Source: Pseudomonas sp. B6002 | Lineage (GTDB): Bacteria; Pseudomonadota; Gammaproteobacteria; Pseudomonadales; Pseudomonadaceae | Reading direction: 5' to 3' | Assembly: GCF_013385985.1 (NCBI RefSeq) | Contig: NZ_JACAOY010000036.1 | Location: 26,722-90,721, forward strand | Length of the DNA stretch: 64,000 bases | Shown here: piece by piece, positions 55,661 through 61,451 of the stretch | Position numbering within the stretch: position 1 is the stretch's first letter | Layout: each line of letters starts with the position of its first letter | Position numbers and translations under genes: made by a program | Notes under the pieces: model-generated | Told to the model about the DNA's origin: nothing | Seen by the model: the letters and a program-made list of their open reading frames with translations, nothing else | The model's database searches: none

Positions 55661-55736
55661 GGCGGTCTACAGTGCCTCTCAGTCGAGTCCAGTCGATTAC
55701 CTAAATGCCCGCGTCTGCGGGCAGATTTATGATCTC

Positions 55737-56825
55737 TCAGCAGGTAACCATCTGAGCATTGGAGTGGTTCTGTGTAAGCCGTTTGAGTGCAATCTCAAGC
55801 GCTTGGTCGTCGAACAGCTTGTTCTTACGAGCACCAGCACCGGCTCCGCCTTCCCAGTGTTTCAACGCTTCGCGCACAGCAGGGACGCTAGGGGAGACAT
55901 TTTTCTGGCTCAGCAACCAATCGACTGTCGCCAGTAACTCCATACCAAATGGAGACTCGAAGCCGTCAATCAATTCGGCTGTGCACTCCAGGGCTTCGGA
56001 GTACTCCTTGGCTTCTGTTTTAAGATAGGTTTGTAGAAAGGCTTTGCGGTCTTGATCGAACCAGATCACATCACTGTTCTCCGCATCACCAATGCGCTTA
56101 TCGCAATGCAGATAACTACCGTCCAGGTTATTAAGCAGATGATCTAATCGATTGGCATACGGCCCGTACTTGTGAGCAACGAACTTAAGGTCTAACGGGT
56201 TCTTGAGGCCTGGCCGTTTCTCAATGGCACGTTCCAGGAACCAGGCCAGCTTTTGAATCTCAAGCAGGCTGCACTCCATACCCAGCACCCAGTATCGCCG
56301 CACCAGTTCCGCAATAAGTGCGCGGGCCGGTGTGAGCTTCTCTACACCACTGCGCTTGGCGACATTCAGGTACTGATTGGAAGGTTCAAATACCAATACA
56401 TCGACATCCAAATCACTCAAGACATCAACGATCTGTTCGCGAACCTCGGGCCATTTCAGGCCGCCGTTACCCGCACCTAGGGGCGGTACTGCGACAGACT
56501 TCACATGGTTTTCGATTAAAAAACGACGTAGGTCGTGTAGACCTTCGGTTATCCATGCCATCTGCGATGGCGATCGCCAGTGACGCTTGGTCGGGAAGTT
56601 AATGATCCATTGAGGACCTTCAAGTTCGTTGACTGCAGTGACGTGGACCTTGCCGGTCTCTACCTCACCAGCCTTGCAGGCCGCCGCGTACAAACGATAG
56701 TTTTCCGCAAAGCGCTCTTTGAACATCAGCGCGATGCCTTTGCCCATCACGCCCACGGTATTCACCGTGTTGACGAGGGCTTCGGTGTTGGCTTCCAAAA
56801 GGTTGCCTTGGGTGAATCTGATCAT
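55737..56825 (-). CDS. darG: DarG-type macrodomain antitoxin
   Basis: 362 residues from ATG 56825, overlapping the DarT stop as ATGA. The macrodomain (about 1-155) has [26 protein letters not shown], Lys80 in NFPTKRHW at the catalytic position known from DarG, and [13 protein letters not shown]. It removes ADP-ribose from thymidine in DNA. The C-terminal domain (about 165-360), with [15 protein letters not shown] and [16 protein letters not shown], resembles the DUF4065/Panacea type and may bind and block the toxin directly. Last gene of a three-gene cassette. Confidence 0.9.
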
Positions 56826-57466
56826 TGGAAATACCATCCCGGACGCGCATGCACAGACAACGTCAGGCCTCTAGCGGCAACGTCCTGCTGTATGCGTTCT
56901 TTCATCGCATCGGTGTAACACATGATGCCAAGGAGTCCTGTAATCGGTAGGTGGTGGTGAATCAGCGCTTCCGCCTGATAACGCTCCATTTTTCGAGGGT
57001 CATCGGGGTCACGTTTGAAGTCGCGTCGTTGAAGGATAGACCAATCGACTTGGTGGAGATTCGCCAGATCGCTGTAATAGTCTGTCCAATCCGGGTAAGC
57101 ATGTGCGTTTGTGAAGACGAACGGTAGGCCAAGCTCGGCGACGCGGTGGAGGCTTGAGACGAGAATGACGATCTCATCATTGTTGCGCTGCTGAACGCTC
57201 CACCCGGAGTGAATGTTCTTCATCATCACAGAGAAGGGGGTGAAGTAGAAGGGCACGTAGTCGGACAAAAAACCCGCAGGAGCAATGGGGACACAGCGCG
57301 TGCGGCGTTTGTCGATTAAATCAACATTGCCTATGTTCACATACTGCGGTGCCTGCACCTCGGAGCTGGCGCAGTGCAGGCCGTTGTCCAGAATCCAGGG
57401 CAGATTGTCGCGATGAACGATCCGCCAGATCAGAGCCTTTTCTGGATTCAGGTTGCTATAAATCAT
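56822..57466 (-). CDS. darT: DarT-type DNA ADP-ribosyltransferase toxin
   Basis: 214 residues. DarT/DUF4433 family: [22 protein letters not shown] (region) is the NAD-binding start, [10 protein letters not shown] carries Arg residues 54-57 near the catalytic Arg position, [10 protein letters not shown] follows, and [12 protein letters not shown] has the likely catalytic Glu166. DarT proteins add ADP-ribose to thymidine in single-stranded DNA, and DarTG systems act in phage defence. Start ATG 57466 overlaps the stop of the upstream gene. Confidence 0.9.
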
Positions 57467-58035
57467 CTAAGAAACATTCCCCGATTCACTCCGATTTGAA
57501 CATTAACACCGGCCTCGCGCATTTTAGACGCACAGAGGGCTTCTACTTCGGCATTAGAAACAAAAACCTTGAAGAAATCGTTAGGGGAAACTACATCGGG
57601 CGATAGGCACTCAGCCATGCAGATGCTCTTGCATTGGGGATCATGGTAGTCCCTGGCATTCATGACCTCCCAATTGATGGCCTCGAAGCCCTCGGCATAA
57701 TCAAGCAACTGAATGGCATCATTAGCCAATGGATGGCGGGGAATGACCTTCCATTGCTTTCTAATTGCCACGTTTCGATGAACTGTAATCACAACAAATT
57801 GGGCGTGAGGCCTTCTACGTTGAACGCTTCCATCGAATGGGTTTGCGGCAAACCAATGGAAAGGTACGTATTTCTCTAATGCGAGACCTTGTCGTTTTTT
57901 CAGAATCTCGGCATCAGCCACATCTTCGAATGCCCTGAGTTGCGCTCGCGGTTTTAGCCCGTTTTGAAAAATACTGCTCAGGTTTTCTAGTGAAGTGAGG
58001 TGATAGAGAAGTTTTTGTTCCTTGATATCCGCCAT
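57463..58035 (-). CDS. Second DarT-like ADP-ribosyltransferase-fold protein
   Basis: 190 residues. It shares the layout of DarT but little sequence with its neighbour: LLYHLTSLENLSSIFQNGLKPR at the start (His12 as NAD-binding candidate), VPFHWFAANPFDGSVQRRR in the middle, and KSICMAECLSPDVV with Glu142 as catalytic candidate. It could be a second toxin with a different target, or an inactive or accessory partner. It is first in the operon, with a 500-base intergenic region upstream. Confidence 0.78.
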   Translation of the reverse strand: MADIKEQKLLYHLTSLENLSSIFQNGLKPRAQLRAFEDVADAEILKKRQGLALEKYVPFHWFAANPFDGSVQRRRPHAQFVVITVHRNVAIRKQWKVIPRHPLANDAIQLLDYAEGFEAINWEVMNARDYHDPQCKSICMAECLSPDVVSPNDFFKVFVSNAEVEALCASKMREAGVNVQIGVNRGMFLR

Positions 58036-58403
58036 ATCGGTCTCCTTGACCTATGCATGAGCTGAAGTTGTTTCATCCCTGCTCGCTCATCAGTTAGCAG
58101 GATGAGATGAGCGATTCTAGGGTGATGTCATTTTGATATGCAATGGCTGCTCTTAATGTGGCGAGCTGTTGACAAACCAAGGAGTCAGTAGCCCCGCAGC
58201 GCTCTCGAATTCGTTGTGCCAGCAGGTTCGGTCCCTTTCATTTGCGGGACATTTCCTAGAGAATCTCAGCCGCTTGCGCCAGCGAAGCTCCCTGACTAGG
58301 CTGCGATCCGTCACTGCACATTCAGTGATCGGGTTTAGTCGCCCGGACCTCGCTAGGCGCATGCGCCATCTCAAAGACAGGTGTCTTCTCACCTGCACTT
58401 TAT
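58036..58403. other. Intergenic region upstream of the DarTG cassette
   Basis: About 370 bases without a credible gene. The first 100 bases, AT-rich, must hold the cassette promoter on the minus strand. The sequence GTTTAGTCGC at 58333 appears again at 58488, near the next gene, so part of the area may be a duplicated or degenerate leader. I see no tRNA or repeat. Confidence 0.5.
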
Positions 58404-58881: not shown

Positions 58882-59865
58882 TCAGATCAAACCCGCTAAT
58901 TCTCCTGGTTCAAACCCATGCGCATCTAAGTGCCAGGCGAAATATTTGCGATTCTTACGGCCCCATTCGGCCACTTTTTTGCCCAGGACTGTTTCGACGT
59001 AGTTAGCAGTAGCTTGAGTCATTTCACGCGACGGATGTTTGACCACGATTCCATCTCTAACCGACAGATAGCCATGCTCAAACAGTGGATCGCACCCTAA
59101 CCGACACATCGGTATAGCGATATTCTCGATGTCGAGCTTTTCCTGGCTGCTACAAGCCGAGCGTTTCTTTATATGCGCTGCCACTAGAAGGTGTCGCGGA
59201 TATTCATTGAGGCAAATGCAGCAGTGACTAGTCGGCTTGTTTCGAAATAAATGGCGAACAATGTACCTGTGTTCCAAGCGTGTAGATTGGCTGGCGGTTC
59301 CGTCCGTCGGCTGGTTTTTAATATCTTGGCGAGCCTCTTCCAGGGTCACTTCGGTGGGAGTGAAATCATGGTCCAGGTGTGGGAAGTGATTGAAGATGGC
59401 TGCGCTTTGCGCTTCATCGTAACGGTAAAACGAACGATCATGCGCGCTCCCGATACATGCCTGTATGGCTTTGAAACGGATAGCATGGTGGCGCACATCA
59501 GTGACGAAGTAGATGTTTTCCCACGTGCTTTCGGTGGAGGCATCTGCCCATCCCCAAAGCTTCAGAGCTAAATCTCTATTGTGTGTCCGATGAGTAAAGC
59601 AGGCACTGACCGTGATGACCGTATTAGTGTTGAATATGATCGTGTCGCCTGGGTTCATAGCAAGCCAAGCATTTCTAGTCTTGGGAGATGCAAGTCCCCA
59701 AATTGTCAGTTTCCCATCTGGATATGCAAGGCGTAGTTCAGACCGCAGTTCAGGATCCAATAAGTCTTGAACATCGCTGAACCGCACTGGATTGAGGATT
59801 GTGGTCTGCAGATTCTTACGAGCTATTTTATCCGAGCAAGGCTGGTAGATTACACGGGCCGTCAT
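58882..59865 (-). CDS. HNH endonuclease with N-terminal PUA/EVE-like domain (candidate)
   Basis: 327 residues. The C-terminal HNH domain (about 215-285) has CCICLNEYPRHLLVAAHIKKRSAC, then ENIAIPMCRLGCDPLFEHGYLSV, the Cys-His-Asn pattern of restriction-type HNH nucleases. The N-terminal 150 residues contain IWGLASPKTRNAWLAMNPGDTIIFN and LALKLWGWADASTESTWENIYFV, which resemble PUA/EVE-like readers of modified bases. Such a fusion would make a modification-dependent restriction enzyme. Its start overlaps the MazG-like gene stop (ATGA). Confidence 0.75.
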   Translation of the reverse strand: MTARVIYQPCSDKIARKNLQTTILNPVRFSDVQDLLDPELRSELRLAYPDGKLTIWGLASPKTRNAWLAMNPGDTIIFNTNTVITVSACFTHRTHNRDLALKLWGWADASTESTWENIYFVTDVRHHAIRFKAIQACIGSAHDRSFYRYDEAQSAAIFNHFPHLDHDFTPTEVTLEEARQDIKNQPTDGTASQSTRLEHRYIVRHLFRNKPTSHCCICLNEYPRHLLVAAHIKKRSACSSQEKLDIENIAIPMCRLGCDPLFEHGYLSVRDGIVVKHPSREMTQATANYVETVLGKKVAEWGRKNRKYFAWHLDAHGFEPGELAGLI

Positions 59866-60221
59866 TCGCCTCTCCTCGAATACTTGACGGCATTGCCTTT
59901 GGCTTTCTCTACTGGGTATTTCACCGCATTAAGCTGAAGCTTGGCGTTCGCTGCTGCTTCGAGGTTAATGTTAAGACGGTCAGCAAGGCGAAGAAGATAA
60001 AGCAGCACATCAGCCATCTCTTCTTCAATGCCTTGAAGGGTGTCACTGGGCAGCGCACCCAGTTCGCTCTGTTCTGGGGTCAACCATTGAAAGTGCTCAA
60101 GCAGTTCGCCAGCCTCACCAGAAAGGGCCATGGCTAGATTTTTTGGCGTATGGAATTTGTCCCAGTCTCGATCGGCCGCGAAGGCAGCCAGCTCTGTCTG
60201 AAGAGCTTTCAAAGCGTCCAT
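59862..60221 (-). CDS. MazG-like nucleotide pyrophosphohydrolase
   Basis: 119 residues, single MazG domain of the small all-alpha NTP pyrophosphatase type. The metal-binding pattern is complete: ALSGEAGELLEHFQW (EAGEL, Glu pair) and EEEMADVLLYLLRLAD (EExxDVL). It should hydrolyse (d)NTPs, possibly modified ones. It is the first gene of a two-gene unit with the HNH nuclease, translationally coupled to it, so the two probably act together against phage or foreign DNA. Confidence 0.87.
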   Translation of the reverse strand: MDALKALQTELAAFAADRDWDKFHTPKNLAMALSGEAGELLEHFQWLTPEQSELGALPSDTLQGIEEEMADVLLYLLRLADRLNINLEAAANAKLQLNAVKYPVEKAKGNAVKYSRRGE

Positions 60222-60677
60222 GATGATGAGATCGCACTTATAGCTGTAGGATCACGGACGTTATCTTGTAGGTAAATTCATGTCTAGGGCGACTGATGGC
60301 CAGATGCCCGTGAGACGGCGTGCTGCGAGTCAGTTTTACTTAGCTTAAGAGCAATTCGTTTGGAATGGAGGTCACTACTTGGCCGGCTTCCCTGCTTCTT
60401 GCCCCTCTGAAACGCTGGCGTTCTTATGAGGGAAGATGAATTTGGAAATCTTTTCTTCAAGATTTCCAGACATTAAAAAGCCGGCTTGTGGCCGGCTTCT
60501 CGGGGACTGCTTCAGCTTGTTTTTGACAAACCTCACCAGCCTTCAAATCGCTCAGCCCACGTTGCGTCGGGCTGAATAGTAGGGGCATCCGCGGGAACTC
60601 CTCCGCTTCGCCGAGCAGGGTGGATAGCGTAAAGCCACCCCCTGCCAAATGTGGGCCGCATGATACCCACATTCACC
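60222..60677. other. Intergenic region between MazG-like gene and S24 repressor
   Basis: About 450 bases. It holds the promoter of the MazG-HNH pair, a minus-strand terminator (60471-60498), and short open frames on the minus strand (for example 60457-60672, 71 residues) that overlap each other and have no recognisable domain or clear ribosome binding site. I do not call a gene here. Confidence 0.5.
60471..60498 (-). terminator. Terminator downstream of the S24 repressor gene
   Basis: An 8-bp stem (AAGCCGGC with GCCGGCTT), a 5-base loop and, on the minus strand, a run of T residues. It is 180 bases after the repressor stop, leaving room for a short untranslated or coding stretch. Confidence 0.8.
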
Positions 60678-61451
60678 TCAAATGCCCACCTCCGGATCCG
60701 ATTTAGAGCCTTCCCAGCCCAATACATGCTCATCCAGCGGCACGGGTGGGCGGCGGTTATTCAGGGTGGACCACCAGAACACCCAGCCCACGATCTGGAA
60801 GTTCTGTTCGAAGCGTTGCTCGTAGGTAAGGTATTCGTCGGGGTGTTCGCCGGCGTTGTGGCTGCGCATGCGCAGGCCACCGCCTGGGCGGTTGTAGAGG
60901 TATTTGATGCGCAGCATGCCGTCGTGTTCTACGGCGTAGATTTCGCCGTCGATGATTTGGGTGCGGCCTCGGTCGATGGCGAGGGTGGCACCTTGTTGGA
61001 TGATGTCGATCATGCTGTTGTCGACCATGTAGGCACCCAGGGCGCGGTCGGGGTTTACGTTGAGGGCCTGAAGGGTGTGCAGGGTGACGCGGATGCATTC
61101 GGTGGAGGTGAAGGAGGGGTGGAGGTCGATCTCCACGTCGTTTTTTTCCGGGCTGGGGGCGGGGCCTGTGAGGTATTTGCCGGCGTCTTCGCGGGCAGAG
61201 AGCGCGTTCCTTGCGTTGGGGCCTTCCAGCAGGAAGTTGGCCGGTGGGTGTTTGGGGCCTTCGCCGGTGCGCAGCCAACGGCTGGAGATGCACAGCAGTT
61301 CTGCGATCTCGTTGAGTCGGCCCATGGGCACGCCGCGCTTGAACCAGTTGTTCACGTGCTGGGGCGTGACGCCGCGGTTCTTGGCGAAGTCGGAGGCGGA
61401 AAGGTGGACTTCCCGTAGTAGCGCTTTTAAGCGATCACCTGATGTATTCAT
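60678..61451 (-). CDS. Phage-type repressor, HTH plus S24 peptidase domain
   Basis: 257 residues. The N-terminal Cro/CI-type helix-turn-helix is at about 5-65 (ALLREVHLSASDFAKNRGVTPQHVNNWFKRG as a region). The C-terminal LexA-like S24 domain (about 125-240) has the nucleophile Ser in MVDNSMIDIIQQG and the Lys in DGMLRIKYLYN, so RecA-stimulated self-cleavage is possible. No cleavage-site Ala-Gly is obvious. No other phage genes are near, so it is an orphan, possibly a prophage remnant or the controller of the adjacent defence genes. Confidence 0.88.
   Translation of the reverse strand: MNTSGDRLKALLREVHLSASDFAKNRGVTPQHVNNWFKRGVPMGRLNEIAELLCISSRWLRTGEGPKHPPANFLLEGPNARNALSAREDAGKYLTGPAPSPEKNDVEIDLHPSFTSTECIRVTLHTLQALNVNPDRALGAYMVDNSMIDIIQQGATLAIDRGRTQIIDGEIYAVEHDGMLRIKYLYNRPGGGLRMRSHNAGEHPDEYLTYEQRFEQNFQIVGWVFWWSTLNNRRPPVPLDEHVLGWEGSKSDPEVGI

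Follow-up and report, generated by a model that had tools for sequence, protein, structure and literature searches.

A 64,000-nucleotide stretch of the Pseudomonas sp. B6002 genome (hereafter the window) carries on its minus strand a three-gene unit (58035-55737) in the order ART1, DarT2, DarG, which is probably a DarTG2-type toxin-antitoxin operon with an added second, divergent DarT, one DarG serving both toxins. DarTG, already known from bacteria as a defence against phages, normally comprises a single toxin. Judged from the sequence, with function predicted, the operon appears to be a variant of DarTG that is conserved and has two toxins, one of them from an under-described DarT clade; as a system it is not of a new kind. 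Its features are collected in Table 1.

Table 1 Features of the ART1-DarT2-DarG operon, with their positions in the window
Feature	Position	Strand	Description and basis
ART1	57463..58035	-	190 aa; divergent DarT-family ADP-ribosyltransferase (predicted); PF14487, fold and invariant residues
DarT2	56822..57466	-	214 aa; canonical macrodomain-associated DarT; PF14487 and NF048013
DarG antitoxin	55737..56825	-	362 aa; NF048014 and PADLOC
DarG macrodomain, residues 1-149	56379..56825	-	N22, K80, W83, G119; match to 5m3i/5m3e
DarG C-terminal DarT-binding-type domain, about residues 160-350	55776..56348	-	Foldseek match 7yk3_B/D
ATGA overlap, ART1 stop / DarT2 start	57463..57466	-	Read in the sequence; kept in relatives
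ATGA overlap, DarT2 stop / DarG start	56822..56825	-	Read in the sequence; kept in relatives
AAGGAG, likely ribosome-binding site of ART1	58042..58047	-	Inferred from the sequence
7-pair inverted repeat directly past DarG, candidate terminator	55706..55723		Listed for the + strand

The start-to-stop ATGA overlaps that an earlier note on this DNA had described are both in place, as are the three open reading frames. Among 33 trio loci, a set chosen by tblastn match to all three genes, the ART1/DarT2 overlap is retained in 31 and the DarT2/DarG overlap in 28, and the three proteins would be expected to be made jointly through translational coupling. An alternative in-frame ATG of DarG, 12 bases upstream (56837), would give a protein of 366 amino acids; comparison with the DarGs of relatives favours the start at 56825. 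Inverted repeats of the kind listed as candidate terminators were not above shuffles (4 hits vs a shuffle mean of 3.2), and a promoter scan was uninformative, with 2 found against 2.6 expected and none on the operon strand. The G+C content of ART1, DarT2, and DarG is 0.47, 0.53, and 0.52, respectively, compared to 0.60 for the window, and over the 33 trio loci ART1 is again the poorest (mean 0.485 vs 0.523 and 0.522). The low G+C content, lowest in ART1, agrees with a foreign origin of the operon and a separate acquisition of ART1. Adjoining the operon (window 58882-61451) are HNH-like, MazG-like, and S24-type regulator genes; the HNH-like product falls below the Pfam threshold and matches the HNH profile of PADLOC with an E-value of 1.1e-4.

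DarT2 and DarG had been recognized as a pair from the sequence, and both indeed exceed their NCBIfam equivalog cut-offs, with 257.6 bits against 150 (NF048013) and 437.6 bits against 250 (NF048014), respectively. DarT2 also matches PF14487 (E 3.1e-57; 194 bits, gathering threshold 22.5). In DarT2 of Thermus, R51 has been assigned a role in proton abstraction and NAD polarisation, Y71 in nicotinamide stacking, M78 in oxocarbenium support, H119 in base contact, and E160 in catalysis (PMC11543638, PMC9967889). All five residues are kept in DarT2, as R54, Y74, M81, H122, and E166. The median dN/dS of the gene is 0.077 (12 of 12 pairs). Where Thermus DarT has a His that contacts the NAD ribose, DarT2 has Arg15 (codon at window 57422-57424), an R-Y-E variant that is common to the trio DarT2s and the DarT2s of two other loci (L106 and L118).

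DarG matches the DarG profile of PADLOC (E 1.1e-124), and its macrodomain is 56 % identical over 150 columns to the DarG macrodomain structures 5m3i and 5m3e. Residues N22, K80, W83, and G119 are invariant in 22 rows comprising DarGs from trio, DarT2-only, and ART1-only loci. The C-terminal half had been taken for a Panacea/DUF4065 domain in the earlier note; it matches instead the chain of Mycobacterium tuberculosis DarG solved together with DarT (Foldseek, 7yk3) and is thus of the DarT-binding type. No Pfam match to PF13274 was obtained in this part of the protein at E<=1, and among six relatives two gave matches, at E 0.078 and 0.15 (14.3 and 13.4 bits, gathering threshold 25.7), so that a Panacea C-terminus, being above threshold neither in the window protein nor in the six relatives, is not supported. 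DarG combines, as DarTG2 antitoxins do, a macrodomain carrying the catalytic Lys80 with a C-terminal domain predicted to bind DarT. Its median dN/dS is 0.042 (10 of 12 pairs). The macrodomain by itself has been reported to rescue cells from TaqDarT (PMC5179494).

The genome from which the window was taken (6.68 Mb, 51 contigs) holds a single macrodomain match, which is DarG (profile search, E<=0.001), and no match to the NADAR profile PF08719 at the same threshold; this profile did match in 3 of 14 control genomes. DarG is therefore the only family-type antitoxin found in the genome, and the proposal of one macrodomain antitoxin beside two ADP-ribosyltransferases (ARTs) holds. ART1 and DarT2 are the genome's only DarT matches at E<=1e-6.

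ART1 is a remote relative of DarT2. It matches PF14487 with an E-value of 2.5e-19 (70.3 bits, gathering threshold 22.5) and the PADLOC DarT profile with 2.7e-34, and scores 48 bits against the DarT equivalog NF048013, well under the cut-off of 150. A match to the NCBIfam family of Tpt1/KptA RNA 2'-phosphotransferases is confined to residues 4-49 and reaches 19 bits, where the cut-off is 231. Structure prediction, which had been put forward as a check, yielded an ART fold closest to solved DarTs: the AlphaFold (AF2) model, made from a 19-row alignment, has a pLDDT of 90.8, its best Foldseek match is the Thermus DarT 7omv (E 7.2e-11; TM 0.87 by query length), and every one of its eight PDB matches with E<=0.001 is a DarT or a DarTG. 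The best sequence-profile match in the PDB is the DarTG fusion of Thermosipho africanus (7omu, E 4.8e-12). By sequence and model, ART1 is a member of the DarT family and a third DarT type. A generic, unrelated ART is ruled out by the PF14487 match and the fold matches, all to DarTs. Of the earlier proposal that the first protein is a distinct ART-fold protein with His12 and Glu142 as candidate residues, the fold and the conservation of both residues stood (neither residue varies in two alignments of 21 and 19 rows, most of which are common to both); its distinctness did not, as the protein is itself a DarT by Pfam, PADLOC, and fold and has its own DarG in other bacteria.

Residues H12, R48, H60, F67, D68, H101, and E142 are invariant in 19 ART1 rows, including those from loci in which ART1 is the only toxin. 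R48, H60, F67, H101, and E142 occupy the positions of R51, Y71, M78, H119, and E160 of the Thermus enzyme, as mapped by multiple alignment and, for the N-terminal part, by profile alignment as well; the placement of H101 is the least certain, as it comes from the multiple alignment and another profile alignment sets it two residues off. The DarT of L100 was left out of the multiple alignment and entered the DarT tree in its corrected reading frame. In the ART1 clade Tyr71 and Met78 are thus replaced by an invariant His and Phe, while the Arg, the base-contacting His, and the Glu are retained. Three of the five DarT2 subfamily residues are kept (H101 by the multiple alignment only), which places ART1 outside that subfamily. 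With Tyr71 and Met78 replaced, catalysis could differ or be weak. At the base-contact position, His touches thymine in DarT2 and Asn is found in the guanine-specific DarT1, in which the Tyr, Met, and His of DarT2 correspond to Ser, Met, and Asn (PMC11543638). The base-contacting His of ART1 suggests a pyrimidine base as its target, with which the macrodomain partner agrees. Since TARG1-like macrodomains also undo uracil ADP-ribosylation (PMC13036486), an RNA target is possible for ART1. The ART1 gene is under purifying selection, its median dN/dS, calculated from 10 of 12 pairs, being 0.096.

Two readings other than the preferred one concern this target. ART1 might hit the same thymine target as DarT2 and add dose or a slightly different motif without any new chemistry, which is a serious though unlikely alternative: a His stands at the base-contacting position in both toxins (H101 and H122) and both go with a thymine-type macrodomain DarG, but the walls of the two active sites are very different (H60, F67, and D68 in ART1 vs Tyr, Met, and Leu in DarT2) and ART1 forms a distinct clade that is kept by purifying selection. 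A bolder version of the two-toxin reading, rather doubtful at present, has ART1 as a third DarT chemistry with a His-His-Glu site and a target beyond that of DarT2, such as uracil in RNA or another single-stranded DNA motif, so that one macrodomain antitoxin would license attack on both the DNA and the RNA of a phage. If that were true, phages would have to inhibit two unlike toxins at once.

The trio is not a peculiarity of one strain. A search for it in other genomes, also suggested beforehand, showed that 26 of 28 loci with ART1 in a scan of GTDB contigs have the order ART1-DarT2-DarG, which is not a matter of chance. Twenty-two of these 26 are from Pseudomonas and one each is from Massilia, Shewanella, Motiliproteus, and a Formivibrio MAG, the last on a possibly misbinned contig of 3,060 bases. 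ART1 is broken or cut in five of them (L006, L023, L024, L025, and L029). The loci nearest to the operon of the window are from Pseudomonas and 94 to 98 % identical. The two GTDB loci that complete the 28, both from Bacteroidota (L026 and L027), have ART1 beside DarG without DarT2 in the stretch fetched, and the whole L026 genome contains one DarT match. In 369 genomes of the class to which the window belongs, three matches to the ART1 profile were found: the window genome, one further trio (L116), and a DarT of another kind (L117). The 247 genomes from the phylum of L026 gave two, one being L026's own genome and the other a DarT2-like gene (L118). Nineteen of 299 genomes of the window phylum have a DarT match, and both toxin genes of the operon are present in the window genome and in G083; another genome, G545, has two DarTs on separate contigs.

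At 17 further loci a member of the ART1 clade has a macrodomain DarG beside it and the stretch fetched contains no DarT2; ten of these loci (L084-L092 and L094) are closely related. Such solo pairs occur on Cytobacillus plasmids (Bacillota; 3 of 72,556 records match, one of which was examined), in a gut phage record that lacks annotation, and on 14 viral contigs, ten of them closely related. A relative of the viral pair is chromosomal in 10 of 5,426 E. coli genomes and, in the two of these ten hits that were examined, both P2-like prophages, sits between a DinI-like gene and a portal gene. The ART1-type DarT and macrodomain gene at L119:6007-7564 and L121:5007-6564 are cargo in such E. coli prophages. 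The trio itself was rejected as a feature of E. coli, as the ART1 DNA of the window has no match in the E. coli genomes and just this solo relative is found there. At one further locus (L109:51-5001, from G646) ART1 and DarG are convergent, and that DarG lies on the DarT2 side of the DarG tree. The neighbouring genes of L109 resemble TniQ/Tn7-type transposition genes.

The 15 ART1 rows (7 trio and 8 solo) in a tree of 36 DarT-family proteins fall into a single clade (100/99), within which one origin is required for the trio ART1s (85/85, not starred). ART1 and DarT2 fall in different clades, for which reason a recent tandem duplication of DarT2 was rejected as the source of ART1. In a tree of 31 DarGs, those of the trio group with DarT2-associated DarGs (88/85, not starred), and nine of the ten ART1-only DarGs are on another branch (96/94), the exception being L109, a long branch. 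The simplest reading of the two trees is that a DarT2-DarG operon gained ART1 without the DarG that had accompanied it; the trio DarG, being of the DarT2 type and not of the ART1 type, may not be adapted to ART1. One locus with DarT2 and DarG but no ART1 (L106) neighbours the trio rows in the toxin tree; in the DarG tree it is nested among them, though weakly. The three genes move as a set across the 33 trio loci (distance Mantel r 0.82, 0.84, and 0.97; p 0.001), and ART1 differs about twice as much as DarT2 and DarG. A further DarT-DarG subtype, marked by the pattern YANLYF...NPM...CAE and by a DarG of somewhat greater length, was noticed at five loci (L060, L061, L079, L107, and L108); three of the five are in the toxin tree and constitute one branch (99/99).

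How the operon decays was followed in 399 genomes of the genus, 33 of which match ART1 (E<=1e-5) and 55 DarG (E<=1e-10), all 33 being within the 55. Intactness was scored at 53 loci, the window included. The operon or its remains are present in 46 of the 399 genomes and complete in 23. In seven of the 46 ART1 is broken, at different places, with DarT2 and DarG intact, and DarT2 alone is never broken; for this asymmetry of 7 vs 0 a two-sided sign test gives p = 0.016, provided that the seven lesions arose independently, and assembly errors may inflate the broken class. ART1 is thus either more dispensable or more costly than DarT2. It is not needed for the control of DarT2, and a role as an obligate antitoxin or chaperone of DarT2 is unlikely in view of these seven loci. 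Both toxins are broken or gone with DarG intact in 11 of the 46, one of them at a contig edge and so uninformative; in one (G004) ART1 is cut, DarT2 is intact, and DarG is in two pieces; three have just the C-terminal domain of DarG left, and one a fragment. The antitoxin persists longer than the toxins, which is what one would expect if this is a toxin-antitoxin operon. An intact ART1 with DarT2 or DarG lost was seen at 0 of the 46 genus loci. This figure depends on calling the toxins of four genomes that were left out (G026, G278, G133, and G206) another DarT type with its own DarG, as they are only 25-27 % identical; counted as ART1 without DarT2 they would break it, and of the four only that of G026 (L060) was placed in the DarT tree. 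Also left out from the 55 DarG matches were G303 and G270 (DarG 40 % identical), G333 (41 % over part of its length), and G106 and G388 (27 %, not fetched).

The remnants have features of their own. DarG is intact at L058, L063-L068, and L070-L072, with both toxins remnants or gone; a free DarG might protect against other DarTs. Three genus genomes contain a frame of 238 amino acids (L073:3609-4325, L074:2000-2716, and L075:1901-2617) in which a DarT2 remnant is fused directly to the C-terminal domain of DarG (79-80 % identical), the macrodomain being missing. Could this be an orphan protein of the DarT-binding type? The split DarG beside an intact DarT2 in G004 (L059:3345-5082) is either a sequencing error or a sign of a viable cell with a split antitoxin.

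That DarG is what restrains ART1 was weighed against a reading in which ART1 is toxic and is neutralised by other means, such as binding by DarT2 or an unlinked factor. The grouping of the trio DarG with DarT2-type DarGs and the absence of an intact ART1 without DarT2 from the 46 loci speak for it. It is improbable, since the ART1 clade stands beside DarG alone at other loci, the ART1 of L109 has a DarG of the DarT2 side next to it, albeit on the opposite strand and on a long branch, and the window genome contains no other macrodomain or NADAR match (E<=0.001). Very improbable is a non-toxin ART1 that has become a DarT2-DarG subunit with an accessory or regulatory role, for instance as a decoy for phage anti-DarT factors, for its two altered DarT2 active-site residues and its dispensability for DarT2 control (broken alone in seven loci with DarT2-DarG intact) are set against a catalytic Arg, His, and Glu that are invariant in 19 of 19 rows, including loci with ART1 as the only toxin.

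DarTG has been described as an anti-phage system (PMC11481870) and has been reported within type I restriction operons (PMC5179494, PMC12255303). Open frames were listed around eight trio loci and the proteins were scanned at four, all of which have restriction genes nearby: hsdM, hsdS, and hsdR in Shewanella (L028), type I restriction genes with a short R gene in P. protegens (L010), a specificity gene at L116, and an Mrr-type restriction gene at L013. In a fifth locus, L022, the trio adjoins, by eye, apparent ATP synthase genes. Gp145-D62, a phage inhibitor of DarT, was active against two DarTs closely related to its own and inactive against a distant one; a fourth DarT in that study was not toxic (PMC11481870). 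As the inhibitor is toxin-specific, a second, unlike DarT could serve as a backup against phage anti-DarT factors.

According to the preferred two-toxin reading, DarT2 would put ADP-ribose on thymine of single-stranded DNA, and ART1 would likewise be active, ADP-ribosylating a pyrimidine base with another sequence or strand preference, an expectation based on the retained catalytic Arg and Glu and base-contacting His, Tyr71 and Met78 being exchanged for His and Phe. DarG would restrain both toxins, its TARG1-type macrodomain stripping the adducts and its C-terminal domain binding DarT2 and perhaps ART1. Infection by a phage would upset this balance and both toxins would then block phage replication, the second DarT being the one that phage anti-DarT proteins may fail to see.

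Of the known systems, DarTG2 of Thermus, M. tuberculosis, and EPEC is closest. DarT2 and DarG pass its equivalog cut-offs, the DarG domains match solved DarGs, and three scanned trio loci have the type I restriction neighbourhood reported for DarTG (PMC5179494, PMC12255303). The trio differs in the divergent DarT that is coupled upstream, giving two DarT genes where the systems described in the parts of the literature consulted have one toxin and one antitoxin. DarTG1 (DarT1 with a NADAR antitoxin, E. coli C7) shares the DarT fold with ART1 (8baq, E 3.0e-7), and both toxins are without Tyr at position 71, where DarT1 has Ser (PMC11543638); ART1 differs in having His instead of Asn at the base contact and Phe instead of Met at the M78 position, and in the absence of a NADAR match from the window genome (E<=0.001). 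The T. africanus fusion 7omu, the top PDB profile match of ART1, has toxin and antitoxin in a single chain and keeps the Tyr and the Met. The solo ART1-DarG pairs of prophages and plasmids have a toxin of the same clade beside a macrodomain DarG, but no DarT2 in the stretch fetched and, for nine of ten, a DarG on another branch (96/94). Their toxins are annotated as 'DarT ssDNA thymidine ADP-ribosyltransferase family protein'.

Among the matches listed, no description of two DarT genes with one DarG was recognised in open-access titles and abstracts; the tree of approximately 5,000 DarTs in PMC11481870 may include ART1 without comment, and the main text of a paper on P2 hotspots (PMC9122126) does not contain DarT, DUF4433, macro, or ADP-ribos. 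The operon indicates that DarTG can be compounded, with two divergent DarTs and one antitoxin, and that at least four lineages have kept the two-toxin unit, namely Pseudomonas, Massilia, Shewanella, and another gammaproteobacterium. It also draws attention to a group of DarTs in which the active site is altered. Why a toxin would be doubled becomes testable, as the phage anti-DarT factor described in PMC11481870 is toxin-specific and a second DarT could close the escape route. It raises the question whether one macrodomain can police two adducts. A different arrangement beside a macrodomain gene was seen at L078:3149-4510, a frame of 453 amino acids that is DarT-like at the N-terminus and has, by eye, an HD-phosphohydrolase-like motif at the C-terminus.
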